In this document: positions 26,429-51,133 of the stretch, piece after piece
Position numbering within the stretch: the first letter of the stretch is position 1
How the letters are laid out: each line of letters begins with the position of its first letter
Assembly: GCA_930633525.1 (NCBI GenBank)
Contig: CAKNFP010000002.1
Location: forward strand, 682,001-746,000
DNA: 64,000 nucleotides
Source: Hyphomicrobiales bacterium
GTDB taxonomy: Bacteria; Pseudomonadota; Alphaproteobacteria; Rhizobiales; Beijerinckiaceae
Direction: 5' to 3'
Notes under the pieces: model-generated
What the model was told of the DNA's origin: nothing
Database searches by the model: none
What the model saw: only the letters and a program-made list of their open reading frames with translations
Position numbers and translations under genes: made by a program

Positions 26429-26449
26429 CTCCTCAGCCCGCTAGCCGCC

Positions 26450-34205: not shown

Positions 34206-34386
34206 GGCGGAGCCGGGCTATCCCAGCAGGGCAATACGTCTCACGACTCCAGGCGCCCATGCGGCGGAGCCGCGTTCTTGGCATAGGCCCCAGGTTGACG
34301 AACGAGCGCGCCGCCGTAGGCGCAGTCGGGGACGCATGCGCGAACCAGCCGTCTCGATGCGGCGCGCCTGATCGAACGAGAACCTG

Positions 34387-35379: not shown

Positions 35380-36215
35380 TGCACTACGTCTGGCTTGTGC
35401 TGCGGAACTGGACGACGGCGCTCGGCATCCTGCTCCTGGCTGCGGTCGTGATGATGGCGCTAACGGCCCATCTGGTCTTTCCGACCGATCCCTACGAGAT
35501 GGTCGGCGTTCCCCTGACATGGCCGGGGCAGGAGCCCGAGATGCTGCTCGGGACGGACAGTCTTGGTCGGGACATGGCGGCCGGCCTCTTCTACGGTTCA
35601 CGCGTGTCGCTGCTGGTCGGCTTTTCCTCGGCCTTCGTGGCGGCGACCGTTGGCGTCCTGGTCGGCGCCTTTGCCGGCTACTACGGCGGGTGGACCGACG
35701 ATGTGCTGATGCGCATCACCGAGCTGTTCCAGACAACCCCGCAGTTCATGCTGGCCCTCGCTGTCGTTGCCGTTCTCGGGCCGTCGGTGACGGTCATCAT
35801 CTTTTCACTGGCGGCGGTATCCTGGCCAGCCGTCGCGCGCCTCGTGCGCGGAGAATTCATGGTCATGCGCGAGCGGGCTTTCGTGCATGGCTGCATCGTG
35901 GCCGGAATGAGCGACCTGCGCATCATCTTCGCGCAGATCCTGCCCAATGTGGTGCCGGTCATCATCGTCATGTCCACCATCCTTGTCGCCACCGCGATCC
36001 TGATGGAATCGGCGATCTCCTTTCTGGGCTTCGGAGACCCGAATGTGCTGACCTGGGGCACCATGATCGGCATGGGGCGCGGCCAGTTGCGCGACGCCTG
36101 GTACATCATCGCCATTCCCGGGGTAGCGCTGCTGCTTACCGCGCTTGCGCTCAATCTGGTCGGCGAGGGCCTCAACGACGCGCTCAACCCGCGCCTGAAG
36201 CAAAGGAAGGGATGA
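35379..36215 (+). CDS. Dipeptide ABC transporter permease, DppC-type (second system)
   Basis: About 278 residues with MLLGTDSLGRDMAAGLFYGSRVSLLVG, the EAA region RAFVHGCIVAGMSDLRIIFAQILPNV, and the C-terminus VGEGLNDALNPRLKQRKG. A GTG directly before the ATG could also start it. Coupling to both neighbours is tight: one base shared with DppB and one with the ATPase ATG at 36215. Confidence 0.92.
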   Translation: MHYVWLVLRNWTTALGILLLAAVVMMALTAHLVFPTDPYEMVGVPLTWPGQEPEMLLGTDSLGRDMAAGLFYGSRVSLLVGFSSAFVAATVGVLVGAFAGYYGGWTDDVLMRITELFQTTPQFMLALAVVAVLGPSVTVIIFSLAAVSWPAVARLVRGEFMVMRERAFVHGCIVAGMSDLRIIFAQILPNVVPVIIVMSTILVATAILMESAISFLGFGDPNVLTWGTMIGMGRGQLRDAWYIIAIPGVALLLTALALNLVGEGLNDALNPRLKQRKG

Positions 36216-37192
36216 TGGGCGCTCCCTTGCTGAGCATAGAGGACCTTCAGGTCCGCATTCGCGGCAATCCGCAGGCAAGGCTCCTGCGCGGCGTGTCCCT
36301 GTCCGTCGATCGCGGCGAGACGCTGGCGGTGGTCGGCGAGAGCGGATGCGGCAAGTCGCTCACCTCGCTCTCGGTCATGGGCCTTCTTCCCGATGGGCTG
36401 GAAAAGCACGGCGGCGTGATCCGCTTCGACGGCGCGGATCTTCCAGTCACCGACAACGAGGCCATGCGCAAGGTGCGCGGGCGCCGGATCGGCATGGTTT
36501 TCCAGGAGCCGATGGCGGCCCTCAATCCCGTCTTTTCCATCGGTGACCAGGTCGCCGAAGTCATCCATGAACACGAGGCGGTAAGCCGCGCCGAAGCGAC
36601 AGCGCGCGTCGTCGATCTGCTCACACAGGTGCGGCTGCCGGAACCGGCGCGTATCATTCACGAATATCCGCATCGCCTTTCCGGCGGGCAAAGGCAGCGT
36701 GTGGTGATCGCCATGGCGCTTGCCTGCCGCCCAGACCTGTTGATCGCCGACGAACCGACGACCGCGCTCGATGTCACCGTGCAGGCGCAGATTATGCGAC
36801 TGCTGCACGATTTGCAGGAGGCGATGGGAATAGCGATTTTGCTGATTACCCATAATCTCGGACTGGTGGCGCAGATGGCAGACCGTGTTGCCGTGATGTA
36901 TGCCGGGCGCAAGGTCGAGGAAGCAACGGCGCGCATGCTGTTCGCCCGGCCGCAGCATCCCTATACACGCGGCCTCCTCGCCGCGACGCCGCGCCCCGGG
37001 CGGCGCCGGCCGGGTGAGCCGCCGCTGACGGAAATCCCCGGCGTCGTTCCCGCGATTACCGAAATGCCGTCCGGCTGCCGCTTCCGGCCGCGCTGCATTC
37101 TGGCCACGGACGCTTGCAGCCGAGAGGATCCGCCATTCGTCAACGGCGTCGCCTGTCATCACGCGGCGGCCTTCCAGGAGCTCGCGCCATGA
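36215..37192 (+). CDS. Dipeptide ABC transporter ATP-binding protein, DppD-type
   Basis: 325 residues. Walker A VGESGCGKSL, LSGGQRQRVVIAMAL, Walker B LLIADEPTTALDVTVQ and ITHNLGLVAQMADR are all present. The Opp/Dpp C-terminal extension carries the cysteine-rich FRPRCILATDACSREDPPF motif. ATG 36212 is adjacent, but GGAAGG is then only one base away, so ATG 36215 is preferred. Its stop overlaps the DppF start (ATGA). Confidence 0.93.
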   Translation: MGAPLLSIEDLQVRIRGNPQARLLRGVSLSVDRGETLAVVGESGCGKSLTSLSVMGLLPDGLEKHGGVIRFDGADLPVTDNEAMRKVRGRRIGMVFQEPMAALNPVFSIGDQVAEVIHEHEAVSRAEATARVVDLLTQVRLPEPARIIHEYPHRLSGGQRQRVVIAMALACRPDLLIADEPTTALDVTVQAQIMRLLHDLQEAMGIAILLITHNLGLVAQMADRVAVMYAGRKVEEATARMLFARPQHPYTRGLLAATPRPGRRRPGEPPLTEIPGVVPAITEMPSGCRFRPRCILATDACSREDPPFVNGVACHHAAAFQELAP

Positions 37193-37998
37193 CCCCGGTC
37201 CTTGCGGTGCGCGATCTCCACTGCAGTTTCGCGACGACGCGCGGGCCGGTCCACGCGGTGCAGGGGGTGAGCCTCAACCTCCATGCCGGAGAGACCCTGG
37301 CGCTCGTCGGGGAATCCGGATGCGGCAAGACGACGTTGGCGCGCTGCATTCTTGGCTTGCAGAAACCGACATCCGGCGCGGTTCTGCTGGACGGAAACAA
37401 TCTCATAGGCCTGTCGCGGCGCGAGGCGCGGCGGCACAGGCCGCGCATGCAATGCGTCTTCCAGGATCCCTTTGCATCGCTCAACCCGCGCAAGCGCGTG
37501 GAGGACCTGATCCGCGAGCCGCTAGACGTGCAGGGTGTCGGAACGGCCGCCGAGCGGCGCCGGCAGGTGCTTGAACTGATGGAGCGGGTCGGCCTTCGCC
37601 CTGACTGGGGCCGGCGCTTCCCCCATGAATTCTCGGGCGGCCAGCGACAGCGCATCGGTATCGCGCGCGCGCTATCGCTGCGGCCCGCCGTGCTCATCTG
37701 CGACGAGCCGGTCTCCGCGCTCGATGTGTCCGTCCAGGCGCAGATCATCAACCTGCTCTGGGAACTCCAGCGCGATCTCGGCATGAGCTATCTGTTCATC
37801 ACCCACGATCTGATGCTGGTGGAGAATTTCGCCGATCGGGTCGCGATGATGTACAAGGGCAAGATCGTCGAGGAAGGGCCCGCACTCGAGGTCTGGCGCA
37901 ATCCGCAGCATGAATTCACCCGCACCCTGATCGACGCGATCCCCATACCCGATCCGAACAGGCCGCTCGGGTCCGGGCGCTCCGCATTCACGGAGTAG
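37189..37998 (+). CDS. Dipeptide ABC transporter ATP-binding protein, DppF-type
   Basis: 269 residues: Walker A VGESGCGKTT, FQDPFASLNPRKRVEDLIREPL, SGGQRQRIGIARAL, Walker B VLICDEPVSALDVSVQ and FITHDLMLVENFADRVAMMYKG. It ends shortly after EVWRNPQHEFTRTLIDAIP, so it lacks the Cys-rich C-terminal extension usual in DppF; the final residues are LGSGRSAFTE. It is the last gene of the importer. Together with DppD it could also energise the ATPase-less system at 24621-27982. Confidence 0.92.
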   Translation: MTPVLAVRDLHCSFATTRGPVHAVQGVSLNLHAGETLALVGESGCGKTTLARCILGLQKPTSGAVLLDGNNLIGLSRREARRHRPRMQCVFQDPFASLNPRKRVEDLIREPLDVQGVGTAAERRRQVLELMERVGLRPDWGRRFPHEFSGGQRQRIGIARALSLRPAVLICDEPVSALDVSVQAQIINLLWELQRDLGMSYLFITHDLMLVENFADRVAMMYKGKIVEEGPALEVWRNPQHEFTRTLIDAIPIPDPNRPLGSGRSAFTE

Positions 37999-38193: not shown

Positions 38194-39255
38194 TCAGGGC
38201 ATGTCTGTCGGCACCAGCCGCTGGCGCGCCTGTTTCGGTGTCAGCCCGAAATGCGCGCGAAAGGCCGACGTGAAACTGGCCTGATGGCGGAATCCGACGG
38301 CCTGCGCGACCGTGGCGATAGGCGTATCGCCTTCCGCCAGCAATTGCATGGCGCAATGCATGCGGTGGCGGTTGCGATAAGCAAAGATCGTTGTGCCGTA
38401 GAGCAGCCGAAATCCGCTCTTCAGCTTGGTCGCGTTGGTACCCAACTTTCGGGCGAGCCTTGGAATGGTCTGCGATTCGGAGAAGTCGCTCGCCAGGACG
38501 TCCCGCGCCCGATCGAACATCGCCAGCTCGCGCGCCGTGAAGACGATCGACTGCTCCTCCGCCTTGCCGCCGCGATCGACGGCGTCAACGGAGAGCACAA
38601 GGAGCTCGATGATGCGGGCGGCAGCGAGCGGAAGATCCCGCGGGCCGGTGAACTTGATCTCGAACAGATCGCGCAGAAGACGCAGGAACTCCGGATCGAT
38701 CTTTTGCTCCGACATGGCCATTGTGCCCTCGCGAGGCGACAGTAACTGCTGTGCCATGCTGTGCGAGACGTCCATGCCGAAGCTCTCCTCGAGGAGATCC
38801 GGCCTGACGTAGAAACTCGCCATCTTGTAGGTTCCGGGCTGGCAGACAACGTCATAAGCCATGCCCACCGCCTGCTGACAGACGATCAGCGAAACATTGG
38901 TCGGAGCGGTCGCGTCCCGTTCCTGGGGAAGGGAGAGCTCGACCGGCCCCTCAAGGAGAAAATGGAACTCCAGCAAACCCTCAGCGGCCACGCGCTCGTG
39001 GCGCATCGTGAAATATTCGCAGTCGGTCAGAACCGCGAATATGCCTTCGGAAGGGGACAGGAAACGCCACGCACCCTTCCCCTCCTTCGCGGGCAGATCA
39101 AAGCACGCGTGGAACAGGCCGAGACGTTCGTCGACTTGGAGTCTGACATCGGACTTTGCCAGGTTGCGAAACGTGGCGGAAACCGTTCCCTCCGGCCCTC
39201 CGAAATAGGCGCGGAACAGCCCTTTTGTATGCGCCGCGTCTTCACAATCGTCCAT
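38194..39255 (-). CDS. AraC-family transcriptional regulator of the kynurenine region
   Basis: About 353 residues. A long N-terminal sensory domain is followed by the AraC/XylS domain with IPRLARKLGTNATKLKSGFRLLYG and IATVAQAVGFRHQASFTSAFRAHFGLTPKQARQ. This second unit, with the FGLTPKQAR ending, resembles PchR-like regulators. It lies 93 bases downstream of the tryptophan dioxygenase gene on the same strand and may be cotranscribed or separately expressed. Position makes it the candidate regulator of the catabolic cluster. Starts upstream of ATG 39255 are possible. Confidence 0.87.
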   Translation of the reverse strand: MDDCEDAAHTKGLFRAYFGGPEGTVSATFRNLAKSDVRLQVDERLGLFHACFDLPAKEGKGAWRFLSPSEGIFAVLTDCEYFTMRHERVAAEGLLEFHFLLEGPVELSLPQERDATAPTNVSLIVCQQAVGMAYDVVCQPGTYKMASFYVRPDLLEESFGMDVSHSMAQQLLSPREGTMAMSEQKIDPEFLRLLRDLFEIKFTGPRDLPLAAARIIELLVLSVDAVDRGGKAEEQSIVFTARELAMFDRARDVLASDFSESQTIPRLARKLGTNATKLKSGFRLLYGTTIFAYRNRHRMHCAMQLLAEGDTPIATVAQAVGFRHQASFTSAFRAHFGLTPKQARQRLVPTDMP

Positions 39256-39348
39256 TCTTGTCTCCAGCCCGCTCGCACGGTCCGGACAAATTATCATTGA
39301 TTGTGAAGATTCGGCACGCAGGCGTCTCCCTTCGGCGATCAGCATCGC

Positions 39349-40182
39349 CTAAAGGTCGGACCGGACGTGCCAGAGTTCGGGGAACAGCTCGACCTCAAGC
39401 ATCCGGCGAAGATAGGAAACGCCGCCGGTGCCGCCGGTGCCGCGCTTGAAACCGATGATGCGCTCCACTGTGGTGACGTGGTTGAAGCGCCAGCGCCGGA
39501 AATAATCCTCGAAGTCGACGAGCTTCTCGGCCAGTTCATAGAGCGGCCAATGATGCTGGGGATCGGCATAGATCTGCCGCCACGCCTCCCGCACCTTCGG
39601 ATTGAGGGTCCTGGTCTGACGGATGTCGGCTCGCGGTTCGTCGCCGACATCAAAGCCGTTGCGCCGGAGAAGCGCGATCGCCTCGTCATAAATCGAGGGC
39701 TCGGACAGAATGCTCTCCAGCTGACCGAGGGTTTCCGGCCTGTGCTCGTGCGGCCGCAGCATGGCCAGGTTGCGGTTGCCCGCCAGATATTCGATCGCCC
39801 GGTATTGCCAGGACTGAAAGCCGGAGGACTGGCCCAGCGATGGCCGCATGATGTTGTATTCGGACGGCGTCATGGTCCGGAGCACGTCCCAGGCGGAATT
39901 GAGCTGGTCGAAGATGCGGGCGACACGCGTCAGCATCTTGAAGGCCGGCTGCAGCTGGTCGCTTCGCAGTGCTCTCGAAGCCGAGCGCATCTCATGGATG
40001 GCAAGCTTCATCCACAATTCCGCGGTCTGGTGCTGGATGATGAACAGAAGCTCGTCATGCGCGCCCGAGAGCGGCTTCTGTGCATTCAGCACCTCATCGA
40101 GATGCAGATAGTCGCCATAGGACATCTTGCGGTCGAAGGACATTTCCGCGCCTTCGACAGACGGATCATAGGGCTCGGTCAT
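39349..40182 (-). CDS. kynA: Tryptophan 2,3-dioxygenase
   Basis: Haem enzyme that opens the indole ring of L-tryptophan to N-formylkynurenine, 277 residues. [11 protein letters not shown] holds the distal His (H51), [17 protein letters not shown] the substrate-binding Arg (R113), and [23 protein letters not shown] the proximal haem ligand (H235) and the Gly-rich loop. The C-terminus EVELFPELW is typical. Its start overlaps the kynureninase stop (ATGA), so the two are cotranslated. The gene order kynureninase then dioxygenase is that of many proteobacterial kyn operons. Confidence 0.97.
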
Positions 40183-41372
40183 GTCACGGCTGCCTTGAGA
40201 TGATAGTCCGGTGTGTCCCACAGCCTTTTGTCCAGCACTTCGGCCAATACGGCCACCGCCTTGTCGATGTCGGCTGCGCCGAGATAGAGCGGCGTGAAAC
40301 CGAAACGCATGGAATCGGGTGCCCGGAAATCACCGATGACACCCCTGGCGATCAAAGCCTGCATGACGGCATAGGCATGGGGGTGGCGAAAGGACACCTG
40401 GCTTCCGCGCGCCGCCGGATCGCGCGGACTGCCGAGTTCAAGGCCAGGACAGGCAGCCTCGACCCCAGCAATGAAGCGCTCGCTCAAGGTGATGGACTGG
40501 GCTCGCACCGCGCTGAGCTCAACGCCTTCCCAGATGTCGAGCGCGACGTCGAGCACAGTCAGCGCGATAACGGGCGGGGTGCCGACCCGCATCCGCTCGA
40601 TGCCCGGCGCCGGGCGATAGTCGAGGTCGAAGGCGAAAGGCGCATCATGTCCCATCCAGCCGGACAGGCTGGGGCGGGCGCGGTCGGCATGGCGCGGGGC
40701 GACATAGATGAAGGCAGGCGCGCCGGGTCCGCCGTTCAGATATTTATAGGTGCAGCCGACGGCGAAATCCGCGTTCGCGTCCGTCACATTCACGTCCAGG
40801 GCGCCAGCGGAATGGGCCAGATCCCAGACCGTCACGGCGCCGGCGGCATGGGCCCTGGCGGTGAGGCGCTTCATGTCGTGGAGACGGCCGGTGCGATAGT
40901 CGACCTCAGTGATGAGCGTGACGGCGACACGCTCGTCAATGGCCTCCTCCACCTCCTCGGGATTGACGACCTTCAGCTCGTAGCCACGCCCCAGCGAGGC
41001 GAGGAGCCCTTGGGCGATATAAAGATCCGATGGGAAATTTCCGCTGTCGGATAGCACGACGCGCCGCTCCGGCACGAATTCGAGCGCCGCCGACAGCGCC
41101 TGATAGACCTTGATGGACAAGGTATCGCCCATCACCACCGTACCGGGCGCGGCGCCGATCAGCCGTGCCACCCGGTCGCCGACCTTGCGCGGCTGCACAT
41201 ACCATCCGGCGGTGTTCCAGCCGCGGATCAGTTGATCGCCCCATTCCTGCGTCAACATCCGGGCCAGGCGCTCACCAGCTGCGACAGGCAGCGGCCCGAG
41301 CGAGTTGCCGTCCAGATAGATGACCCCGTTAGGCAGATGGAAGGCAGCGCGGGTCTTGGTGAAATCGATCAT
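40179..41372 (-). CDS. kynU: Kynureninase
   Basis: PLP enzyme of 397 residues that hydrolyses kynurenine to anthranilate plus alanine, or 3-hydroxykynurenine to 3-hydroxyanthranilate. [11 protein letters not shown] opens the protein, [14 protein letters not shown] supplies the PLP-binding Asp, and [19 protein letters not shown] contains the PLP lysine (K210). [16 protein letters not shown] and RFGFTPLY follow. It lies 15 bases after the aldehyde dehydrogenase gene and overlaps the tryptophan dioxygenase gene. Preference between kynurenine and its 3-hydroxy form cannot be told by eye. Confidence 0.96.
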
Positions 41373-41387
41373 GCGCCTCGGTCCTGA

Positions 41388-42779
41388 TCAAGCGGCCACC
41401 GAACGGATGACGATCGCCTTTTTGCGGAGAAAACGGCGAAAGCCGCCATAACCATAGCGGGTGCCGCCGAGGCCCGAGCAGCCGAACGCGGTTTTCTCCG
41501 CGCGGGCACCGACACCGCCCATCGTATCGAAATCATTGATCCACAAGCCGCCGGCATTGATGCGGCTGCCGATCGCGATCGCCCTGGCCTCCTCGCCTAT
41601 GACGGCCGCGGAGAGACCGAATTCGGTGTCGTTGGCAAGCTTGACGGCTTCTTCTTCCGTGTCGAAGGCCATGATCGGAATGATGGGCCCGAAGGTCTCG
41701 TCGCGCATGACCGCCATGTCCTGCGTGACGTTGACCAGAACGGTCGGCTCGCACCAGAGCCCGCCGTCATGCGAGATGATTCTGCCGCCGGTCAGCACCT
41801 TGGCGCCCTTGGCGAGCGCATCGGCGAGCTGGTCGCGCAGTATCTCCGCCTGACGGGCGAAGATGACCGGCCCGAGTTCCCCCTGCTTGATGTCGGCGGT
41901 GTTCATCACGAGCGCCTTCATGCGCGCGACGACCCGCTCGCATACGGCATCGTAGACGCCACGCTGCACATAGACGCGCTCGATGGCGCAGCAGAGCTGG
42001 CCCGCATTCTCCACCGACCCGCGCACGATGATCTCCGCCGCGAAATCGGGCTCGGCACTGTCCAGCACGACAGCCGGGTCGCTGCCGCCGAGTTCGAGGA
42101 ACACGGTCTTGAACTGGGCGGCCGCGCGCTCCTGCACCTTGCGGCCGGTACGCACCGAGCCGGTGAAGACCAGCGTGTCGGTGAGATCCACGATCATCGC
42201 GCCCGTCTCACCGTCGCCCTCGAAGACATCGAGCACGTCGCGCAGATACTCGACTTCCGCGATGGCCGCGCGGAAGGGCTTGATGAAGCGTGGCGTGACC
42301 TCAGACGGCTTGATGGCGACGGCCGAGCCGGCGAGCAGCGCCGTAATGGCGTCGATCATGCAGAGAATGAGGGGGTAGTTCCACGGCGAGATGATGCCGA
42401 CCAGCTCATAGGGCACATGCTGCTGCTGGAAGCGCAGCGTTGGATCTGAGGAAGAGCCCGTCGCCTCCGCGAGCGCCTCGGCCGCCGTGGCGCAGCGCAT
42501 GCGCGTAATGCCCTTGAGGCCTTCGATTTCATTGACCGACCACTCGTAACGACCGGTGTCGGCGCAGAGCGCCTCGAGGATCGCGTCATAGTGGCGATCC
42601 ACCGCATCGCACAGGGCCAGCATCGCCTTCGCCCGGTCATCGATGCCCAACGCCAGCCACGCGGGCTGGCCGGCGCGCAGTTCCGCGCAGCGCGCCTCCA
42701 GCGCCTCACGGTTCAGGGGCGTTATCGCATAGTCATTCGCGCCGGTACGCGGATTGCGGATCTCGAGCGTGCGGGTCAT
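41388..42779 (-). CDS. Aldehyde dehydrogenase family protein in kynurenine cluster
   Basis: NAD(P)-dependent dehydrogenase, 463 residues. ISPWNYPL and KPSEVTP form the cofactor site, FTGSVRTGRKV the nucleotide loop, LELGG the general-base Glu (E229) and NAGQLCC the catalytic Cys (C263). It is the first gene of the reverse-strand operon with kynureninase and tryptophan dioxygenase. By analogy with NbaE/AmnC it might oxidise an aminomuconate semialdehyde, but it is shorter than those (about 490 residues). Other aldehydes from tryptophan are possible. The open frame continues 113 codons upstream into the divergent region; ATG 42779 marks where family similarity begins. Confidence 0.88.
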   Translation of the reverse strand: MTRTLEIRNPRTGANDYAITPLNREALEARCAELRAGQPAWLALGIDDRAKAMLALCDAVDRHYDAILEALCADTGRYEWSVNEIEGLKGITRMRCATAAEALAEATGSSSDPTLRFQQQHVPYELVGIISPWNYPLILCMIDAITALLAGSAVAIKPSEVTPRFIKPFRAAIAEVEYLRDVLDVFEGDGETGAMIVDLTDTLVFTGSVRTGRKVQERAAAQFKTVFLELGGSDPAVVLDSAEPDFAAEIIVRGSVENAGQLCCAIERVYVQRGVYDAVCERVVARMKALVMNTADIKQGELGPVIFARQAEILRDQLADALAKGAKVLTGGRIISHDGGLWCEPTVLVNVTQDMAVMRDETFGPIIPIMAFDTEEEAVKLANDTEFGLSAAVIGEEARAIAIGSRINAGGLWINDFDTMGGVGARAEKTAFGCSGLGGTRYGYGGFRRFLRKKAIVIRSVAA

Positions 42780-42948
42780 CGTGCATCCTCTTGTCTCGAC
42801 CAGAGCATGGCCGAGCGTCCCGCTTCTGCAAAGGGGCGCCTGCGGCGTCCTGCCGAATTCCAAAAAGTTAGGGCTGGCGAAGAAAAAGCGAAAGCTGTTA
42901 TCGGCTGCCGCAAGCGGATTAACTGGCGGAACCGAGAAGGAGACGACC

Positions 42949-44280
42949 ATGCGGCGATTCATCGAAGATCTGGCCCAACGCGGCGAACTTGGCGTCGTGC
43001 ACCGTGCGGTCGATCCGCGCCACCAGCTCGCTGCCATCACAAAAGCCGTCCAGAAGGCGGGCGAGCAGGCAGTGTTGTTCGAGACCGTCGAAGGCACCGA
43101 ACTGCCGGTCGTTTCCAACCTCTATGGCAGCCATGACCGGCTTTGCCGGCTGATCGGCGCCGGCGACGGCCAGACCTTCTGCCAGCGTTGGATCGAGCTC
43201 ACAGACGCCTGTATCGCCGCGCAAGACGATGACGTGCTGGAACAGGCGCCCCTCTCGGTCCAGTCGGAATTCGTGTCGGGCCGGCTCTCCGACCTGCCGG
43301 CTGTCACCTACCACGCACGGGATGCCGGCCCCTATTTCACATCGGCCATCTTCCTGGCGCGCGAGCCGGACAGCGGTGTGCCCAACCTGTCTTTCCACCG
43401 CGCCATGCAGGTCTCGGATGAGGAATTGCGGGTGCGCCTCGGCTCGACGCACGACCTCGCCCGCTACCAGGCCAAGGCGGAAGAGCGCGGGCAGCCGCTG
43501 GAAGCCGCGCTGCTGCTCTCCTGCCCGCCGGACATCTTCCTCGCCGCCTGCGCCTCCCTGCCCTACGAGGCGTCGGAACTGGCGATGGCCGCCAAGATCA
43601 GCGGCGGCAAGCTCGCAATGCGGCGCTGTGAGACGATCGACCTCAACGTCCCCGCCTCGGTGGATATCGTGGTCGAGGGCCGCTTTCTGCCCAACGTCAA
43701 GCGGCCGGAAGGACCGTTCGGCGAATTCATGGGCAATTACGTCGGTGTCGGTGACAACCACGTCTTCGAGGTCAGTCATGTGAGCTATAGGCCAGGTGCC
43801 GTCTTCCACGGGCTGGTGTGCGGCTCGCCGGAGGACCTGCGGCCGCTGGAAGCTGTCACGGCGGCCCGCATCTATCGCCATGTAGCCTCGCAAATGCCCG
43901 GCGTCATCGATGTCTGCTGCCGCCCCAACGTGATGATTTCCATCATCAAGATCCGCAAGACCTACGAGGGCCAGGGCAAGCATGCGATCCTCGCGGCGCT
44001 CGGTTCCCATCTCGACTACAACAAGGTCGTCATCGTGGTGGACGAGGACGTGGACATCTACGATCTCGACGACGTGATGTGGGCCTATATGACGCGCGGC
44101 CGCGCCGATACCCGCGCCATGATCCTCAACGACATTCCCGGCTTCTATCGCGATCCGCACAAGGATCATTGGGGTCGGCTCTGCATCGATGCGACCATGC
44201 CCTTCGGCCGCGAGGCGGAGTTCGCGCGCAAAACCATCCCCGGCGAGGACAGCATCGATCTGCGCGAATGGCTGGCGTGA
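42949..44280 (+). CDS. UbiD-family decarboxylase (prenylated-FMN type)
   Basis: 443 residues. UbiD enzymes reversibly (de)carboxylate aromatic or unsaturated acids using prenyl-FMN. The catalytic E-R-E set is visible: NLSFHR gives R151, and PEGPFGEF gives E254 and E259, spaced five apart as in Fdc1 (Arg173, Glu277, Glu282). VVEGRFLP and the C-terminal DIYDLDDVMWAYMTR are also conserved. AAGGAG precedes ATG 42949. It is divergent from the aldehyde dehydrogenase gene (169 bases) and followed by a Rid-family gene. The position points to a carboxylic acid of tryptophan breakdown as substrate, for example anthranilate or 3-hydroxyanthranilate. No UbiX gene is in the window, so prenyl-FMN must come from elsewhere. 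Confidence 0.9.
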   Translation: MRRFIEDLAQRGELGVVHRAVDPRHQLAAITKAVQKAGEQAVLFETVEGTELPVVSNLYGSHDRLCRLIGAGDGQTFCQRWIELTDACIAAQDDDVLEQAPLSVQSEFVSGRLSDLPAVTYHARDAGPYFTSAIFLAREPDSGVPNLSFHRAMQVSDEELRVRLGSTHDLARYQAKAEERGQPLEAALLLSCPPDIFLAACASLPYEASELAMAAKISGGKLAMRRCETIDLNVPASVDIVVEGRFLPNVKRPEGPFGEFMGNYVGVGDNHVFEVSHVSYRPGAVFHGLVCGSPEDLRPLEAVTAARIYRHVASQMPGVIDVCCRPNVMISIIKIRKTYEGQGKHAILAALGSHLDYNKVVIVVDEDVDIYDLDDVMWAYMTRGRADTRAMILNDIPGFYRDPHKDHWGRLCIDATMPFGREAEFARKTIPGEDSIDLREWLA

Positions 44281-44408
44281 GACAACCCAGCTTCGACACG
44301 GCTTCGAGGCCCGGCGCATGCCTTCTGCCGCTCGCCTAAAAGCTTCGCCCGATTGCGCAAGCCTCCGGCATTCCGTGCCAGCCGGCCTTCGCTAGTGTCT
44401 CCTCCAGA

Positions 44409-44453
44409 GCATCGGCCCGAAAAGTGGAACGCGGTTTTCGGGCAAGCCGATGC
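44409..44453. repeat. REP-like hairpin repeat
   Basis: Stem arms GCATCGG+CCCGAAAA (44409-44423) and TTTTCGGG...CCGATGC (44435-44453) pair with a four-base bulge (CAAG) and loop GTGGAACGCGG. This resembles the CCGAAAAGTGG...TTTTCGG intergenic repeats abundant in Hyphomicrobiales. It lies between the UbiD and Rid genes, so it may reduce readthrough or stabilise the upstream message. Confidence 0.7.
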
Positions 44454-44521
44454 ACAGACAATGAGCTACGGCATAGCGCCGGATCCGGCCTGATGCTGTA
44501 GCAACATGAGGAGCTTCACCT

Positions 44522-44899
44522 ATGAAGAACCGGATCTTCTCCGGAGCGCCGTCCGAGGACTTCGCCGGCTATGCCAAGGCGGTGATCGACGGCCCGACGA
44601 TTTATGTCTCTGGCACGATGGGGCAGGATGCCACGGGCGCCCTGCCCGAGGGCGTGGCGGAACAGGCGCGCAACGCACTCGCCTCCATCGACGCGGCACT
44701 GGTCAAGGCCGGCGCCAGCCTGAAGAACGCGGTCGCCTGCCGCGTCTACATCACCGACCCCGGCTATCTGAAGGAGGTAGCCACCGTCCTGGGCGAGGTG
44801 TTCCGAGATATCCGCCCGACCAACACACTCCTCGTCTGCCAGCTTCCGGCGCCGGGCGCCAAGGTCGAGATCGAGGTGACGGCCTCGACGCGCGGGTAG
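44522..44899 (+). CDS. Rid family protein (YjgF/YER057c/UK114), possible 2-aminomuconate deaminase-like
   Basis: 125 residues with the Rid pattern: YAKAVIDGPTIYVSGTMGQD, EQARNALASIDAALVKAGASLKNAVACRVYITD, RPTNTLLVCQLPAPGAKVEIEVTA. The archetypal imine deaminase RidA has an Arg (E. coli R105) in VARLP. Here the aligned position in VCQLP is Gln107, so this is a non-RidA subfamily member. The 2-aminomuconate deaminases NbaF/AmnD of 3-hydroxyanthranilate degradation belong to this superfamily, which fits the cluster. GAGGAG precedes the ATG. It is downstream of UbiD on the same strand (241 bases) and convergent with the Liv importer operon. Confidence 0.87.
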   Translation: MKNRIFSGAPSEDFAGYAKAVIDGPTIYVSGTMGQDATGALPEGVAEQARNALASIDAALVKAGASLKNAVACRVYITDPGYLKEVATVLGEVFRDIRPTNTLLVCQLPAPGAKVEIEVTASTRG

Positions 44900-44977
44900 C
44901 GATCTGTGGACATACAGCATGCCCCCAGGTGTCGTCACCGGAGAGAAACCGCTGATGACATCTGAGGGGCTCTCCGG

Positions 44978-46282
44978 TCACTTTCCGGGTATGAGGCCCT
45001 GAGGCCTGAAGCGCAGCACGACGATCAGAATCACGCCCATCACCAGGAGCCGCATATGTGCGGCGCTTTCCATCAAATGCTGTTTGAGCGGTGATCCTTC
45101 GCCCATCCCGGATGTGGCGAACGCCATCAGGCTGTTGCCCCAAGGCTCGACCTGCACCCACAGATACCAGATCAGAAAACCACCGAGCACCGCGCCGAGA
45201 TTGCTGCCGGAGCCGCCGACGACGACCATCACCCAGATCAGGAACGTGAAGCGCAGAGGCTGGAACGCGCCGGGGGTGAGCTGCCCCTCCAGGGTGGCCA
45301 GCATCGCGCCCGCGATGCCCAGCACCGCGCAGCCCAGGACAAAGATCTGCAGGTGCCGGCGCGTCACGTCCTTGCCCATCGCGGCAGCGGCCACCTCGTT
45401 GTCGCGGATGGCGCGCATCATGCGCCCCCAGGGGGAATGCAGCGCGGCCTCCGACAGCCAGACGAGCACCAGCAGCACCGCGAGGAACATGCCGGTGTAG
45501 AGCAGCTTGACGGCCACAGCCGAGGCGGCGACAGGATCGGCGCCAATCCATGAGGCCAACGACAGGAAACTCTGGCTCGCCTGGAGGTCGACTTCGAACG
45601 GAACGGGACGGGGAATATCGACGATGTTTTTGACGCCGCGATCCAGCCAGTCTTCGTTCTTCATCACCGCGATGACAATTTCGGCAATGCCCAGCGTGGC
45701 GATCGCGAGATAGTCCGAGCGCAAGCCGAGCGCGGTCTTGCCGATAAGCCAGCCGGCGCCCGCCGCCAGCAGACCGCCGACCGGCCAGGACAGGAGCACG
45801 GGTAGCCCGAGGCCGCCGATATTGCCCTGCAACGCCGGGTTGATGGCCTCGACGGCGGCGACTGCAGGATCGAGGATCCAGCGATAGACAACGAGGCCGA
45901 CGATCAGCAGCAGGGCGAGGGCGAGAATCCGAACCCGGCCCCGCGGCAACCGCCGGTGAAGCAGCGCTGCAGCAGCAATGATTGCCGCGCCGAACAGCAG
46001 GGCCGCCATGATCCGGAAACCTCCGGCCTGCCATGCGCCGGGAACCGGATCGAGCGCCACAAGGACCGTCGCCAGGCCGCCGAGGGCGACGAAGCCCATC
46101 GTGCCGACGTTGTAGAGGCCGGCATAGCCCCACTGGATGTTGACGCCGAGCGCCATGATCGCGGAGATCAGGCCCATGTTGACGATCGTCAGCGCCGCAT
46201 TCCAGCTCTGCGTCAGGCCGGTGAGCGCGATCAACGCGCCGACGATGAGGAAAAGCAGGACGTTGCGCGTGGTCTGGCTCAT
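44978..46282 (-). CDS. Branched-chain amino-acid-type ABC permease (LivM-like)
   Basis: 434 residues with about ten hydrophobic helices. The conserved LivM segments are WGYAGLYNVGTMGFVALGG, LRSDYLAIATLGIAEIV and WGRMMRAIRDNEVAAAAMGKDV, then VMVVVGGSGSNLGAVLGGFLIW. An insertion between helices makes it longer than E. coli LivM-core proteins. It is the last gene of an operon whose other members bring in the amino-acid-like ligand. The adjoining kynurenine genes suggest tryptophan or kynurenines. Confidence 0.92.
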   Translation of the reverse strand: MSQTTRNVLLFLIVGALIALTGLTQSWNAALTIVNMGLISAIMALGVNIQWGYAGLYNVGTMGFVALGGLATVLVALDPVPGAWQAGGFRIMAALLFGAAIIAAAALLHRRLPRGRVRILALALLLIVGLVVYRWILDPAVAAVEAINPALQGNIGGLGLPVLLSWPVGGLLAAGAGWLIGKTALGLRSDYLAIATLGIAEIVIAVMKNEDWLDRGVKNIVDIPRPVPFEVDLQASQSFLSLASWIGADPVAASAVAVKLLYTGMFLAVLLVLVWLSEAALHSPWGRMMRAIRDNEVAAAAMGKDVTRRHLQIFVLGCAVLGIAGAMLATLEGQLTPGAFQPLRFTFLIWVMVVVGGSGSNLGAVLGGFLIWYLWVQVEPWGNSLMAFATSGMGEGSPLKQHLMESAAHMRLLVMGVILIVVLRFRPQGLIPGK

Positions 46283-47289
46283 GCTGCCCTGCCGCGAAAG
46301 ATGCCGGTTGGCCTGAACAGAAGGACGAGAACAAGGACAATGAAGCTGACGGCGACCTTGTAGTCGGTGCTCAGGAGCTGCAGCAGCCCCTCCGGTTGCC
46401 AGCCGGATGGAAGCAGGTAGGTCGCGACCTTCTTGAAACTGTAGGTGAAGACGATTTCGGAGAAGGCAACGACGAAGCCGCCGGCAACGGCCCCCAGCGG
46501 ATTGCCGAGCCCGCCGACAACGGCAGCAGCGAAAACAGGCAGCAGGAGCTGGAAATAGGTGATCGGACGGAATGACTTGTCGAGGCCATAGAGGACGCCC
46601 GCAAGCGTGGCGAGCGCCGCCGATAGTATCCAGACGATCCTGACAACGCGCTCGGGATCGATGCCCGAAAGCAGAGCAAGGTTTTCATTATCGGAAAAAG
46701 CCCGCATGGACTTCCCGGTGCGGGTGCGTTTCAGAAACCAATGCAACCAGCCGACGACGAGGACCGTGGTCGCAAGAGTGATGACTTGCGTCGTACGGAG
46801 CGCCATCGTCTCCGCCAGCCCCGTCCACTGGCGGAACTGCGCCGCGGTGAAAATGAAACGCGCCCCATCCGCGAACTGGCGATCATCGACTCCGATGAAG
46901 ATGCGGACCAACCCACCCATGACGAACATGACGCCCAATGAGGTCATCACAAGCGTAATCGAATGGACTTTCCTCATGCGATAGGGGCGATAGACCAGTC
47001 GGTCGGTGGCCAGGACCACAAGGATGGTGGCGACAACGCCGACTGGCAGGGCGAGCAGCGCGACCGGCAGCGGCGCGATGCTCACCCCGACCGCCTGCAG
47101 CGTCCATGTCATCAGGATGGTCGCCATGGTGCCGAAGGCCATGGTGTCGCCATGCGCGAAGTTCGAGAAGCGCAGGATGCCGTAGACCAAGGTGACTCCC
47201 AGCGCGCCAAGCGCCAGTTGGCAGCCGTAGGTCATGGCCGGTAGCAGGACGAAATTAGTGAAGGCGACGAGTGCGTTGAGCACATCCAT
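46279..47289 (-). CDS. Branched-chain amino-acid-type ABC permease (LivH-like)
   Basis: 336 residues, polytopic. LALGALGVTLVYGILRFSNFAHGDTMAFG is the LivH N-terminal motif. GKSMRAFSDNENLALLSGIDPERVVRIVWILSAALATLAGVLYGL and FAAAVVGGLGNPLGAVAGGFVV follow. ATG 47289 was preferred over an upstream frame extension that lacks hydrophobic character. It overlaps the LivM start by four bases and lies four bases after the LivF stop. Confidence 0.92.
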   Translation of the reverse strand: MDVLNALVAFTNFVLLPAMTYGCQLALGALGVTLVYGILRFSNFAHGDTMAFGTMATILMTWTLQAVGVSIAPLPVALLALPVGVVATILVVLATDRLVYRPYRMRKVHSITLVMTSLGVMFVMGGLVRIFIGVDDRQFADGARFIFTAAQFRQWTGLAETMALRTTQVITLATTVLVVGWLHWFLKRTRTGKSMRAFSDNENLALLSGIDPERVVRIVWILSAALATLAGVLYGLDKSFRPITYFQLLLPVFAAAVVGGLGNPLGAVAGGFVVAFSEIVFTYSFKKVATYLLPSGWQPEGLLQLLSTDYKVAVSFIVLVLVLLFRPTGIFRGRAA

Positions 47290-47293
47290 ATCG

Positions 47294-48025
47294 TCAGCCC
47301 CCCAAAAAGGTGCTGCGCACCTCTGGGTCAGCGAGCAATTCCTTCCCTGTTCCGGTGAAGCGGTTTGCGCCCAGTACCAGCACGTAGCCTCGGTCGGCGA
47401 TCTCGAGGGCCTGCCGGGCATTCTGCTCCACCATCAGGACCGTGACGCCGATGCGTGCGATATCGATGATGCGGTCGAACAATTCATCCATGACGATGGG
47501 ACTGACGCCTGCCGTCGGCTCGTCGAGAAGGAGCACAGACGGCTCGGTCATCAGGGCACGGCCGACCGCGACCTGCTGACGTTGGCCGCCTGAAAGTTCA
47601 CCGGCGGCCTGGAAGCGCTTGTCCTTGAGCACGGGAAACAGCGAATAGACTTGTTCCATCGTCGCTCTGAAATCGTCGCGCCGCAGGAAGGCGCCCATCT
47701 CGAGGTTTTCCTCCACCGTCATGGACGGAAACACATTTTCGGTCTGCGGTACGAAGGCCATTCCCATGCCGACGCGCTCTTGCGGTCGAAGGCGGGTGAT
47801 GTCCTCGCCGCCCAGCCGCACGGTTCCTTCGCGCAGTTGCAGCATCCCGAAGATGGCCTTCATGGCCGTCGACTTGCCTGCGCCGTTGGGGCCCACGATG
47901 ACGGCGATTTCGCCCTTCTCGACCGCGATGGTGCAGCCGTTGAGGATGTCGGCGCCGCCGTAGCCGCCCGTCATGCCCGCGCCAACCAAAAAGGGGGACG
48001 TGCTTGCGATGCCGCCTGCCGTCAC
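47294..48025 (-). CDS. ABC transporter ATP-binding protein (LivF-like)
   Basis: 243 residues: VEKGEIAVIVGPNGAGKSTAMKAI (Walker A), FPSMTVEENLEMGAF, LSGGQRQQVAVGRAL, Walker B VLLLDEPTAGVSPIVMDELF and VEQNARQALEIADRGYVL. These are diagnostic of LivF. The start is a GTG overlapping the LivG stop by four bases. Confidence 0.93.
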   Translation of the reverse strand: MTAGGIASTSPFLVGAGMTGGYGGADILNGCTIAVEKGEIAVIVGPNGAGKSTAMKAIFGMLQLREGTVRLGGEDITRLRPQERVGMGMAFVPQTENVFPSMTVEENLEMGAFLRRDDFRATMEQVYSLFPVLKDKRFQAAGELSGGQRQQVAVGRALMTEPSVLLLDEPTAGVSPIVMDELFDRIIDIARIGVTVLMVEQNARQALEIADRGYVLVLGANRFTGTGKELLADPEVRSTFLGG

Positions 48026-48837
48026 GGTGCGGCCCCGCCGATCATCGCTTCGGAGATATCCCTGCCGACGACCTTGTTCTTCAGGCCGGTGCCGAGATAG
48101 GCTTCTATCACCTGCTCGTTGCGCACGATTTCAGTCGGCCGGCCTTCCGCCAGCATCTTGCCCTGAGCCATGACGATGACGCTGTCGCACAATCGCGCAA
48201 TGAAATCCATATCGTGCTCGATGACGCAGAAGGTGTAGCCACGCTCCCTGTTCAGCCGCACGATCGCATCGCCGATCGTCCTGAGCAGAGTCCGGTTCAC
48301 GCCTGCGCCGACCTCATCCAGAAAGACAATCCGTGCGTCGACCATCATCGTGCGGCCGATTTCGAGCAGCTTCTTCTGGCCACCGGACAGGTTACCCGCC
48401 AGTTCGTCGCGCATGGGGCTGAGCTCAAGGAAGGCCAAGACTTCCTGTGCCCTGGCGCGCAGCTCCTCCTCCTCATGCGCGATTCGACGTCGATGGACCC
48501 AGGTGTTCCAAAGCGTCTCACCGCTCTGGCGCGCGGGCACCATCATCAGGTTCTCCAGCACACTCATGGTGGGAAATTCGTGGGCGACCTGAAATGTGCG
48601 CAGCACACCCCGGGCAAAAAGCGCGTGCGGCGGCAGCCCGGTGATGTCTTCGCCGGCCATCGTGACGCTGCCTGCCGTCGGTTTATGGACGCCGGCGATG
48701 ACATTGAAAAGTGTCGACTTGCCGGCGCCATTCGGCCCGATCAAGCCAGTGATGGCGCCGTCCGGTATCGTCAGCGACATACCGTCGACAGCGCGGAAGC
48801 CGCCGAAATGCTTGTGAATGTCATGACAAACGATCAT
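48022..48837 (-). CDS. ABC transporter ATP-binding protein (LivG-like)
   Basis: About 271 residues: GLIGPNGAGKSTLFNVI (Walker A), GVLRTFQVAHEFPTMSVLENLM, LSGGQKKLLEIGRTMM (an LSGGQKK form typical of LivG), Walker B IVFLDEVGAGVNRTL and VIEHDMDFIARLCDSVIVM. Walker B has DEVGAG where most LivG have DEPxAG. An in-frame GTG 66 bases upstream is possible, but ATG 48837 fits family N-termini. Confidence 0.92.
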   Translation of the reverse strand: MIVCHDIHKHFGGFRAVDGMSLTIPDGAITGLIGPNGAGKSTLFNVIAGVHKPTAGSVTMAGEDITGLPPHALFARGVLRTFQVAHEFPTMSVLENLMMVPARQSGETLWNTWVHRRRIAHEEEELRARAQEVLAFLELSPMRDELAGNLSGGQKKLLEIGRTMMVDARIVFLDEVGAGVNRTLLRTIGDAIVRLNRERGYTFCVIEHDMDFIARLCDSVIVMAQGKMLAEGRPTEIVRNEQVIEAYLGTGLKNKVVGRDISEAMIGGAAP

Positions 48838-48939
48838 CCGCCCCCCGCCGGCTCCGAAACCGCTGGACGTCCCGCCCTCCGGCAGATCGGCTGAGCGACC
48901 CACCGCTCTTCCGGCAATGGGTCACCAAACCTCACGGTA

Positions 48940-50136
48940 TCAGTGGTACTTCACGGTCTTCATCTCGCCGTTTTCCACCACGATTTCGCGATAGGAACCA
49001 GCACTTTCCCCCTTGCCGATGAACTCGACCGCCGAGGCGCCGACATAGTCGATGTCGCCACCCTCCTTGAGAATCTTCAACGCTTTGGCAAGTTCGCCAG
49101 GATAGATCTTTTCGCCCGGGGCATTCACGACGCTCATGATCTTGGACTTGTAGTCAGACGGCTTCGCGGATCCCGCTGCCTGCATGGCCAGCAGCATGAT
49201 CGCGGTGGCATCGTAGGTTTCCGGCACGAAGGTGGCCGTGCCATTGATGCCGGCGGCCTTGGTCATCTCCAGCAGCTTCGCCGCGCCCGGGCTGTCGGAG
49301 CCAGGACGATCGCCGAAGGCGCCATCGAGCTGCTTCCCGAACTTCTTGATCAGGCTTTCGCCCCACATGCCGTTGGGGAATACGAATTTGGAGAACGCTC
49401 CGGTGTCGAGGACGGTCTGCACAACACCGGCCCCACCCTGGTCGGCATAACCCGCCACGACGATCGCGTCGCCACCAGCGGAAGCGAGAGCGCCGATCTC
49501 CGCCGAATAATCGCTCTTGCCGTCTTCATGAGGGGCACTGAGCGTGATCTTGCCACCGAGCTTCTCGAAGGCGGACTGGATGGAGGACGCGATGCCCTTC
49601 CCATAGTCGTTGTTGGTGTAGCTGATCGCAGCGGATTTGATACCGCGCTCCGACATCATCTTCGCGAGAATTTCGCCCTCACGAGCATCTGACGGCGCGG
49701 TGCGGAAAAACAGGCCCTTGCCGTCGATTGTCGAAAGGCCCGGCGATGTCGCCGACGGCGAGATCAGGACCATGCCATTCGGAATCGCGACATTGGTCAG
49801 GACTGCGCTCGCGGCCCCTGAGCAGGTTGGCCCGATAATCCCCGACACTTTGTCGGAGGTGATCAGCCGCTCGGCCGCAGCGGTGGCCGCACCTGCGTCG
49901 ATGCAGGTCTCATCCCCCCGGATCGGGATGACCTTGGCTCCATCCAGGAAAATGCCGGAATCGCTGACCTCCTTCATCGCGAGTTCAGCGGCTTGCGCCA
50001 TCGGCGGCGTCAGTGTCTCGATAGGCCCGGTGAAGCCCATTTCGATGCCGATCTTGATGTCCGCAGCCTTGGCCATGCCCGTCAGAGCAAGGCTGGAAAT
50101 GGACGCGATCAGAAGCCGCTTGATTGCTTGTCCCAT
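48940..50136 (-). CDS. Amino-acid-type ABC substrate-binding protein (LivJ/K-like, Peripla_BP_6)
   Basis: 398 residues with a signal peptide (LLIASISSLALTGMAKAAD). The mature protein shows GFTGPIETLTPPMAQAAELAMKEV, VSGIIGPTCSGAASAVL and SYTNNDYGKGIASSIQSAFEKLGGKITL, the type I binding-protein pattern of the HAAT family. It lies upstream of LivG and downstream of the formamidase-like gene. The 130-base gap on its 5' side may hold a promoter; none was pinned down. Ligand inferred from neighbours: tryptophan, kynurenine or another aromatic amino acid. Confidence 0.92.
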   Translation of the reverse strand: MGQAIKRLLIASISSLALTGMAKAADIKIGIEMGFTGPIETLTPPMAQAAELAMKEVSDSGIFLDGAKVIPIRGDETCIDAGAATAAAERLITSDKVSGIIGPTCSGAASAVLTNVAIPNGMVLISPSATSPGLSTIDGKGLFFRTAPSDAREGEILAKMMSERGIKSAAISYTNNDYGKGIASSIQSAFEKLGGKITLSAPHEDGKSDYSAEIGALASAGGDAIVVAGYADQGGAGVVQTVLDTGAFSKFVFPNGMWGESLIKKFGKQLDGAFGDRPGSDSPGAAKLLEMTKAAGINGTATFVPETYDATAIMLLAMQAAGSAKPSDYKSKIMSVVNAPGEKIYPGELAKALKILKEGGDIDYVGASAVEFIGKGESAGSYREIVVENGEMKTVKYH

Positions 50137-50266
50137 AAGTCCCCTCTCTACCGTCTGGGACGCGGCGTTTTTTAACGTCCTGCGTCCGATTCCAGGAATT
50201 TGCTTCCAGTATGTGACCTTATCGCGAGCAGTTTCACAATGCGGCTGTCGCAGACGGTCTCATTTT

Positions 50267-51133
50267 TCACATTTCGGCTTTTTCGCGCGGTTCTGGCTGA
50301 CTGCCGCAACCGAGCAGCGCCCGCGTCAGGGGATGCTCGGCGTCGGCGAGCCCGTCGAGAATGTTGAAGTGATGGCGATCCGGTTCGACGACGACGGTCG
50401 TCGCGGCCCCAAGCCCGCTCCAGATATTCGCCAGCAGCGCATTCTGGCGCAAAAACTCCTGGCGTTCAGCCCCACCCGCCCAGCAGATGATGCGGACAGC
50501 GGACATCGGCCGCAGCAGCGCCGGGCTCTCAGCCAACGCCTCAGGCTCGTCGATCCGCAACACCGCGTTCATGCTTGTCTTCATCAGGGGGCGCAAATCG
50601 TGAAGACCGGAGATCGAGATCACGTTCCGGATGCGCTGCCGTGCAGCATCGGGAAGGGGCGTCGTCGCGGAAACCATCCGGCTTACCAATTGTCCGCCAG
50701 CGGAATGCCCGCTCAGCACGATCGGCCCCTCGATCAATGCCGCCGCCGTCCCAATGGCCCGGGCTACCTCGCCCGCGATGCCAGCGATCCTGATGTCGGG
50801 GCACAGGGTATAAGTCGGCATTGCCACAGCATAGCCGCTGTCCACCGACCCGGCTGCGAGATGCGACCAAGCGCGTTGATCGGACTCCATCCAGTAGCCG
50901 CCATGGACAAAAACCACCAGCCCCTTGGGTTTGGCCTCAGGCAGAAAAAGATCGAGCCGCTGGCGCGGGGCGCTGCCATAGGCGATGTCCAATCTGGCGC
51001 GACCGGCGGCTGTCAGACCATCGCGAAATTGCTCCGCCGCCTCCATCCAGAGGGCAGGCCACCGGTGACCGCCAGCGATGTTGTCACTGTTCGAATAGGC
51101 GCCGTCCCAGTCCTCGACACAATATTCGAGCAT
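50267..51133 (-). CDS. Alpha/beta hydrolase, kynurenine formamidase-like
   Basis: 288 residues. The oxyanion motif HGGYW (77-81) is the signature of arylformamidase-type hydrolases, and the nucleophile Ser144 is in SGHSAGGQ. The catalytic His is H254 or H255 in EPDRHHFNILDGL. Arylformamidase converts N-formylkynurenine to kynurenine plus formate, exactly the missing step between tryptophan dioxygenase and kynureninase in this region. It replaces the unrelated metal-dependent KynB seen in many bacteria. It heads the reverse-strand operon with the Liv importer. The assignment combines motif and context; a general esterase is the alternative. Confidence 0.85.
   Translation of the reverse strand: MLEYCVEDWDGAYSNSDNIAGGHRWPALWMEAAEQFRDGLTAAGRARLDIAYGSAPRQRLDLFLPEAKPKGLVVFVHGGYWMESDQRAWSHLAAGSVDSGYAVAMPTYTLCPDIRIAGIAGEVARAIGTAAALIEGPIVLSGHSAGGQLVSRMVSATTPLPDAARQRIRNVISISGLHDLRPLMKTSMNAVLRIDEPEALAESPALLRPMSAVRIICWAGGAERQEFLRQNALLANIWSGLGAATTVVVEPDRHHFNILDGLADAEHPLTRALLGCGSQPEPREKAEM

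Follow-up and report, generated by a model that had tools for sequence, protein, structure and literature searches.

The window analysed here, a stretch of 64,000 nucleotides from a Hyphomicrobiales bacterium (assembly GCA_930633525.1, contig CAKNFP010000002.1, positions 682,001 to 746,000; C2:682001-746000), carries a UbiD-family gene in one island with kynA and kynU, the genes of tryptophan 2,3-dioxygenase and kynureninase. By family model and E-R-E residues (R151, E254, E259), this UbiD is a predicted decarboxylase of the type dependent on prenylated flavin mononucleotide (prFMN). Judged from sequence, its association with the kynurenine (kyn) genes is real, and it is new within the open-access literature searched: no open-access (PMC) paper on the combination was found, papers that name UbiD or UbiX along with kynureninase or kynurenine having been judged by title and start of abstract. 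The operons, ubiX in the kyn operon of three relatives, an operator-like motif and repeated joining of kynA support UbiD as a functional member of the island. We tentatively propose, at somewhat below an even chance, that the whole forms a co-regulated pathway with UbiD upstream of KynA, in which side-chain removal would come first, UbiD second and KynA last.

The genes named by the initial annotation (kynA, kynU, aldehyde dehydrogenase (ALDH), UbiD with its E-R-E set, Rid and an HGGYW hydrolase) were all located where it had placed them, by family models and alignments. It had drawn the island at 38194-51133; that interval holds these genes and also a LivHMGF transporter with its substrate-binding protein (SBP) at 44978-50136, and the whole co-occurring set is wider (about 24.6-51.1 kb of the window). 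Its view of UbiD as part of a kynurenine island stands as to membership and is disfavoured as to decarboxylation after kynureninase.

Operon layout

The central genes of the island are the following.

38194-39345, minus strand: AraC-family regulator (PF12833, 77.8 bits); homologues lie beside ALDH/UbiD in relatives
39349-40182, minus strand: kynA, tryptophan 2,3-dioxygenase (TIGR03036, 412.8 bits, cut-off 390.7; full alignment to the solved enzyme 2nox, 384 bits)
40179-41372, minus strand: kynU, kynureninase (TIGR01814, 278.5 bits, cut-off 246.4; 424 bits to 1qz9)
41388-42779, minus strand: ALDH (PF00171), 15 nt from kynU
42851-42869, plus strand: operator-like motif in the divergent ALDH/UbiD promoter region, one of eight training sites
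42949-44280, plus strand: UbiD-family predicted prFMN decarboxylase (TIGR00148, 301.4 bits, cut-off 244.85; PF01977, PF20695, PF20696; R151/E254/E259; nearest solved structure HmfF, 6h6v)

ALDH, kynU, kynA and the AraC gene form a same-strand series spaced by 15, -10 and 3 nt, and UbiD is divergent at a distance of 172 nt. With ATG starts at 42779 for ALDH (search queries from 42776 or 43118) and 40182 for kynA (queries from 40188 or 40221), the ALDH-UbiD gap is 169 nt and kynU and kynA overlap by 4 nt. The genome (7.16 Mb) has one kynA (matched in two stretches of one gene), one kynU, five UbiD genes and two UbiX-like genes on the same replicon.

Loci from related genomes are designated by L-numbers, the best 79 of 313 relatives having been kept. 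Gene calls there were made with a GC-position filter and have approximate boundaries, and family scans of neighbour proteins were run on representatives. In L012, L014 and L069, ubiX, the gene for the cofactor of UbiD, stands behind kynA in the ALDH-kynU-kynA run. In L020, genes for a thiamine pyrophosphate (TPP)-dependent enzyme and an oxidase, kynU and kynA are consecutive on one strand, and Devosia L112 has the order TPP enzyme, oxidase, Rid, kynU, kynA. L011 and L013 lack kynA and kynU between ALDH and ubiX; their kynA-kynU pair lies on another contig beside a benzoate-CoA-ligase-family gene (identified by family scan in the L102 copy, to which the L103 copy is 80% identical). In Novosphingobium L031 the neighbours of UbiD, ALDH and Rid are kynA, a divergent kynU, alanine dehydrogenase and a formamidase candidate of the cyclase type.

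Co-localization across genomes

The kynA search covered 24 genomes of the kept loci (L010-L032, L069) and the own genome, 25 in all, and kynA was matched in 20 of the 24 related genomes. The distance from UbiD is 40 kb or less in 13 of the 25 (own, L010, L012, L014, L017, L019, L020, L021, L023, L024, L031, L032, L069), which exceeds chance, since 80 kb is about 2% of such a genome. The distances in L021, L023, L024 and L017 are about 21, 21, 39 and 15 kb; linkage in the first three is inferred from contig correspondence, and in L017 UbiD is directly on the contig read (L112). Eight genomes have kynA on a separate contig (L011, L013, L015, L018, L022, L025, L026, L029), these being drafts in which the true distance is not fixed, and no kynA match was found in four (L016, L027, L028, L030). 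The initial annotation would have given up its hypothesis if this clade were found mostly away from kyn genes, and on that point the picture is mixed.

In the UbiD tree, which predates four distant linkages, the kyn-linked label changes six times, with at least five changes forced by well supported branches; the UbiD of L029 falls outside the well supported 27-row UbiD clade. In the kynA tree the UbiD-linked label changes five times, at least four of them forced. The simplest account is that kynA has joined UbiD loci repeatedly, with some losses.

The same data bear on another explanation, in which regulation is shared and no intermediate is. The amine oxidase, TPP enzyme, ALDH and UbiD would then degrade another amino compound, such as an arylglycine-type or heteroaryl amino acid, and the kyn genes would be kept because the substrates co-occur. 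The module does recur apart from kyn genes, for example in Paraburkholderia and Caballeronia loci with UbiD, UbiX, ALDH, AraC, FAD oxidoreductase and TPP enzyme, and a paralogous TPP-ALDH-UbiD-UbiX cluster is present on the same replicon. However, kynA or kynU lies inside module operons in L020, L112, L012, L014 and L069, and kynA appears to have joined more than once. This explanation is rather unlikely.

Other gene combinations were seen around these UbiD genes. UbiD, DUF2817 and a Dpp transporter in L015 and L016 form a second association of the clade, with a counterpart in the window at 24621-29143. In Pseudomonas sp. CFII64 (L030:15274-20575), which has no kynA match in its genome, a UbiD run is followed by aminotransferase, ApbA-like reductase, class II aldolase, amidase and acyl-CoA-dehydrogenase-like flavoprotein genes. 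Three Rhodobacter-type genomes (L105-L107; L105 by similar layout) have hydantoinase A/B and a GntR regulator between ALDH/Rid and kynU, and an Asp/Glu/hydantoin racemase family gene is found in 17 loci.

The wider gene set and its operator-like motif

Genes recurring beside this UbiD clade reach leftward to about 24.6 kb (FAD amine-oxidase-like enzyme, TPP enzyme, Dpp-type transporters, DUF2817). The remaining features of the set are listed here; ABC stands for ATP-binding cassette.

24621-28006, minus strand: parts of a Dpp-type ABC transporter (permeases 24621-25502 and 25502-26428, SBP 26450-28006); 78-85% identity to transporters adjoining related UbiD in L015/L016; operator-like motif not found
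28058-29143, plus strand: DUF2817 (PF10994) hydrolase, 318.9 bits; 76-78% homologues beside UbiD in L015/L016; operator-like motif not found
29384-30703, minus strand: FAD amine-oxidase-like enzyme, 74% to its L012 homologue (homologue L011:11355-12680, 71%, is PF01593 at 148.5 bits); 4-nt overlap with the TPP gene
30700-32376, minus strand: TPP-dependent enzyme, PRK08199-like, 66% to its L019 homologue (homologue L020:11118-12797 is NF006052, 620 bits, cut-off 539)
32465-32483, plus strand: operator-like motif between the TPP and DppA genes (16.7 bits, p=0.013 against 225 control intergenic regions)
32601-37998, plus strand: Dpp-type ABC transporter (SBP to 34205; 34387-35379; 35376-36215; ~36212-37192; ~37189-37998); SBP 79% to its L069 homologue; these families recur beside this UbiD clade
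44522-44899, plus strand: Rid (YjgF/UK114) protein (PF01042, 79.4 bits, cut-off 27.3; below the TIGR00004 cut-off, 55.8 vs 106.25); own operator-like motif not found
44978-50136, minus strand: Liv-type ABC transporter (livM, livH, livF, livG, SBP), 76-90% homologues in L011-L013
50261-50279, minus strand: weak site resembling the motif, ahead of the Liv operon (12.3 bits; not significant at p=0.097); counterpart sites in L011-L013 score 16.6-19.5
50267-51133, minus strand: alpha/beta hydrolase (HGGYW), probable kynurenine formamidase (4e11, E 8e-14; 2pbl, E 1e-74; homologues beside kynA; NCBIfam HaHSL)

A weight matrix was trained on eight ALDH/UbiD intergenic sites (TGCCGAWWTCSAAAAA) from the window, L010-L014, L020 and L069. 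By rule, each test region comprised the 260 nt preceding a leading island gene, the training sites being excluded, and the same 225 intergenic regions served as control. The 5% control level is passed by 18 of 73 untrained regions (3.7 expected) and the 1% level by 14 (0.73 expected). The figure of 18/73 is the one relied on; a hand-drawn tally of 32 promoters (16/32 at p<=0.05) omitted UbiD-leading promoters that fail. The binomial value of 1.5e-8 overstates the case because rows are related (L105-L107 are near-copies).

Passing regions precede Liv genes in L011, L012, L013 and L025, TPP/Dpp genes in the window, L069 and L027, and Dpp in L020. Others precede ALDH in L032 and L105-L107, kynU in L019, UbiD in L029, L030 and L033, and ubiX in L027 and L031; the ALDH/UbiD site of L033, outside the training set, scores 28.0 bits. 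In pairwise motif comparison the TPP/Dpp region was not separated from shuffles (15/18 matches; shuffles reached 15). As a putative operator, the motif is shown to link the UbiD/ALDH-kynU-kynA, TPP-oxidase/Dpp and Liv units, and not DUF2817, the second Dpp set, Rid or formamidase on their own. The recurring gene set, the operons and this motif, as a putative AraC site, make it possible, again with slightly less than an even chance, that the island is one co-regulated catabolic unit.

UbiD and its cofactor supply

R151, E254 and E259 are identical in all 87 aligned UbiD rows. The closest records are from Chelatococcus (96% and 92%), and the clade is rare: a search of 397 genomes from the order gave matches at E<=1e-140 in five, two of which reach >=75%. 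Among solved UbiD enzymes the ranking by bits is HmfF (6h6v, 219-220), E. coli UbiD (150), AnInD (146) and phenolic acid decarboxylase (146).

The initial annotation had proposed looking for UbiX elsewhere in the genome, and two UbiX-like genes with PF02441 matches are present on the same replicon (C2:623314 and C2:649502). The former is 68% identical to the UbiX of L012, which is above the TIGR00421 cut-off.

A protein of DUF2390/TIGR02444 type, scanned in two representatives, is a repeated neighbour of UbiD or UbiX in L004, L011-L013, L015, L017, L018, L021, L023, L025, L027, L031 and L097, and may have an accessory role for prFMN enzymes. In L004 and L032 (Paracoccus versutus) the ALDH and UbiD matches are incomplete or split, which may point to broken genes or to sequencing errors in these copies.

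KynU type, probable formamidase and possible fate of anthranilate

The best alignment of KynU is with the kynureninase of P. fluorescens (1qz9), with W64, G281 and T282 matched by alignment count and not the human set. This W/G/T set is taken here as the signature of kynurenine-type kynureninases, and KynU looks to be of that type.

The arylformamidase-like hydrolase of the initial annotation is present, and a weak match to the solved kynurenine formamidase 4e11 (E 8e-14) agrees with the position of its homologues beside kynA; the NCBIfam model, however, names a hormone-sensitive lipase (HaHSL equivalog, 354.9 vs 320). Homologues, 54-68% identical, stand beside kynA in L111, L113 and L115. From this context and the 4e11 match, the protein at 50267-51133 is probably a kynurenine formamidase. 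The HaHSL equivalog would then capture a protein whose context suggests kynurenine formamidase.

UbiD was earlier supposed to act on a kynureninase product, converting anthranilate to aniline, 3-hydroxyanthranilate to 2-aminophenol, or an aminomuconate-type acid, with ALDH and Rid downstream. Its co-localization with kyn genes fits this chemistry, and the aminomuconate pathway also uses a dehydrogenase and a deaminase, AmnC and AmnD, according to PMC4539516. The gene inventory argues otherwise, beginning with the kynurenine-type KynU. No PF06052 match for 3-hydroxyanthranilate 3,4-dioxygenase (HAO) was found in the own genome, a negative that carries little weight as control genomes gave no match either; AmnD-type deaminases, for their part, are presumably Rid-like. 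The own genome has no PF00848 match for a Rieske alpha subunit, the control being positive in 4/14 genomes. Anthranilate 1,2-dioxygenase and aniline dioxygenase are both Rieske enzymes, so neither is expected here. For Rid and ALDH to work in an aminomuconate pathway, a ring-cleavage dioxygenase would be required, and none was seen among the island genes. Furthermore, relatives pair kynA/kynU with a CoA ligase, the oxidase and TPP enzyme would be left unexplained, and four genomes with such a UbiD have no kynA match. Decarboxylation after kynureninase is therefore improbable, and both the aniline route (no Rieske oxygenase) and the 2-aminophenol route (KynU type; HAO not found, with the control likewise without match) are disfavoured. 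Decarboxylation of kynurenate was set aside, as KynU, ALDH and the TPP enzyme would stay unused; a hydroxyproline/pyrrole-2-carboxylate reading was considered and also set aside.

Candidates for another exit are present. L102 also carries a gene of the salicylyl-CoA 5-hydroxylase family, which we take to include 2-aminobenzoyl-CoA monooxygenase. The own genome has a 50% homologue of this hydroxylase with L102-like neighbours, and a 56% homologue of the L102 CoA ligase beside a Liv transporter. The two are candidates for an anthranilate-CoA route.

Proposed pathway

In the proposed pathway, an imported tryptophan-type compound would be oxidised at its C-N bond by the FAD amine oxidase, and the imine hydrolysed with Rid, Rid proteins being imine-active. 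The TPP enzyme would decarboxylate the alpha-keto acid, and ALDH would turn the aldehyde into a (hetero)aromatic acid. UbiD, loaded with prFMN made by UbiX from elsewhere on the replicon, would strip the carboxylate from this acid. The product, probably L-tryptophan, would pass through KynA, formamidase and KynU to anthranilate and alanine, and anthranilate would leave by the 2-aminobenzoyl-CoA route. Since oxidase, Rid, TPP enzyme and ALDH are all present and HmfF is the nearest solved UbiD, the economical order is side chain off, then UbiD, with KynA last. The evidence in favour comprises the operons, ubiX in the kyn run, the 13/25 linkage, the motif, the kynA-tree changes, the missing Rieske subunit, the CoA-route candidates and HmfF.

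Several observations weigh against this proposal. Twelve of the 25 genomes have such a UbiD without nearby kynA, four of them without any kynA match. ALDH is strongly matched in 22 of 25 genomes (the 24 related and G155), the exceptions being G155, L015 and L016; L015 and L016 show neither ALDH nor an oxidase or TPP gene within 10 kb of UbiD, ALDH is unmatched anywhere in these genomes, and only ubiX was seen within the 60 kb read around the UbiD of G155 (75%). In the kynU tree the UbiD-linked label changes five times, at least three changes being forced, with clustering no better than shuffled (268/500). As for the motif, 55 of the 73 promoter regions fail the 5% level, among them kynU of L032 and L105-L107 (only L019 passes), 11/14 UbiD regions, Rid (9/9), formamidase (3/3), DUF2817 (3/3) and SBP1 (2/2), as well as the Liv site of the window (12.3 bits). 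E. coli UbiD, AnInD and phenolic acid decarboxylase come next after HmfF, so that no single substrate class is indicated. AnInD rejects indole-2-carboxylate and pyrrole-2-carboxylate, as stated in PMC8988006. Finally, the direction of flow is not given by any sequence.

A further reading has two tryptophan branches under one regulator. The oxidase, TPP enzyme and ALDH would remove the alanine side chain by an indole-3-pyruvate type of route, the substrate of UbiD would be an indolic acid, for instance indole-3-carboxylate, and ring opening by KynA-KynU would run in parallel. Indole-3-acetate is presumably not a plausible UbiD substrate. The TPP homologue L020:11118-12797 is best on PRK08199, and no indolepyruvate-decarboxylase model is among the best 25 of its 57 matches. 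On the other side, the solved relatives of UbiD include the indole-3-carboxylate decarboxylase AnInD (146 bits), and the indolepyruvate route as given in PMC11676955 runs in this order, with deamination (by an aminotransferase first), TPP decarboxylation and ALDH. Parallel branches of this kind are unlikely.

A more specific form of the pathway with UbiD before KynA is no better than a long shot: the island would free the indole C2 of tryptophan of a carbon substituent, via tetrahydro-beta-carboline-3-carboxylates (tryptophan-aldehyde or -glyoxylate adducts) to 2-carboxytryptophan and then L-tryptophan. Amine oxidase and Rid would open the C1-N bond, the TPP enzyme would remove the oxalyl group where present, ALDH would make 2-carboxytryptophan, and UbiD would decarboxylate it to free L-tryptophan for ring opening by KynA. 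Tetrahydro-beta-carboline carboxylates formed from tryptophan are reported to occur in foods. If true, this would be a prFMN step regenerating a proteinogenic amino acid from a Pictet-Spengler adduct.

Comparison with known systems

A second cluster in the own genome (L097, C2:612000-631999), with the order TPP-ALDH-GntR-UbiD(50%)-UbiX-racemase-FAD oxidoreductase-DUF2390, lies on the same replicon. It resembles a cluster carried by plasmid 1 of Paracoccus denitrificans, and several of the genes have homologues on S. meliloti pSymA. The Paracoccus and C2:617-628 kb clusters share with the island a TPP enzyme, ALDH, UbiD (47-50%), UbiX, racemase and DUF2390/TIGR02444, but have other oxidoreductases and another transporter, and no kyn genes in the stretches read.

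HmfF, the furan-2,5-dicarboxylate (FDCA) decarboxylase (6h6v), aligns over its full length with the island UbiD and has the E-R-E set in common with it, and it acts on a heteroaromatic acid (PMC7976604). The two differ at chain position 296, where HmfF has His and the island UbiD D296; Asp occupies this column in 27/27 clade rows. H297 of HmfF is named key to furan specificity in PMC7976604, and we infer that it is this His, with numbering off by one. Identity as an FDCA decarboxylase is disfavoured, the substrate-recognising His of HmfF being replaced by Asp. AnInD (7p9q), the indole-3-carboxylate decarboxylase, is also a UbiD-family enzyme with an indole-type acid as substrate, near HmfF according to its authors, but it reaches only 146 bits to the island UbiD against 220 for HmfF and is described as strict for indole-3-carboxylate (PMC8988006).

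The tie of this prFMN decarboxylase clade to tryptophan ring opening by operon and motif makes the substrate searchable: it would be a carboxylated compound that either precedes KynA-KynU or results from them. Should UbiD feed KynA, the island would be a funnel into the kynurenine route of a kind not met in the open-access literature searched, and its decarboxylase one with an indole-type substrate. The formamidase candidate in the window is of the alpha/beta-hydrolase type, whereas that of L031 is of the cyclase type. As in the known kynurenine/anthranilate pathway, KynA and KynU are above curated cut-offs and relatives have kynA-kynU with a benzoate-CoA-ligase-family gene; unlike that pathway, the genes are tied here by operon and motif to UbiD, ALDH, an FAD oxidase and a TPP enzyme, and in relatives to UbiX.

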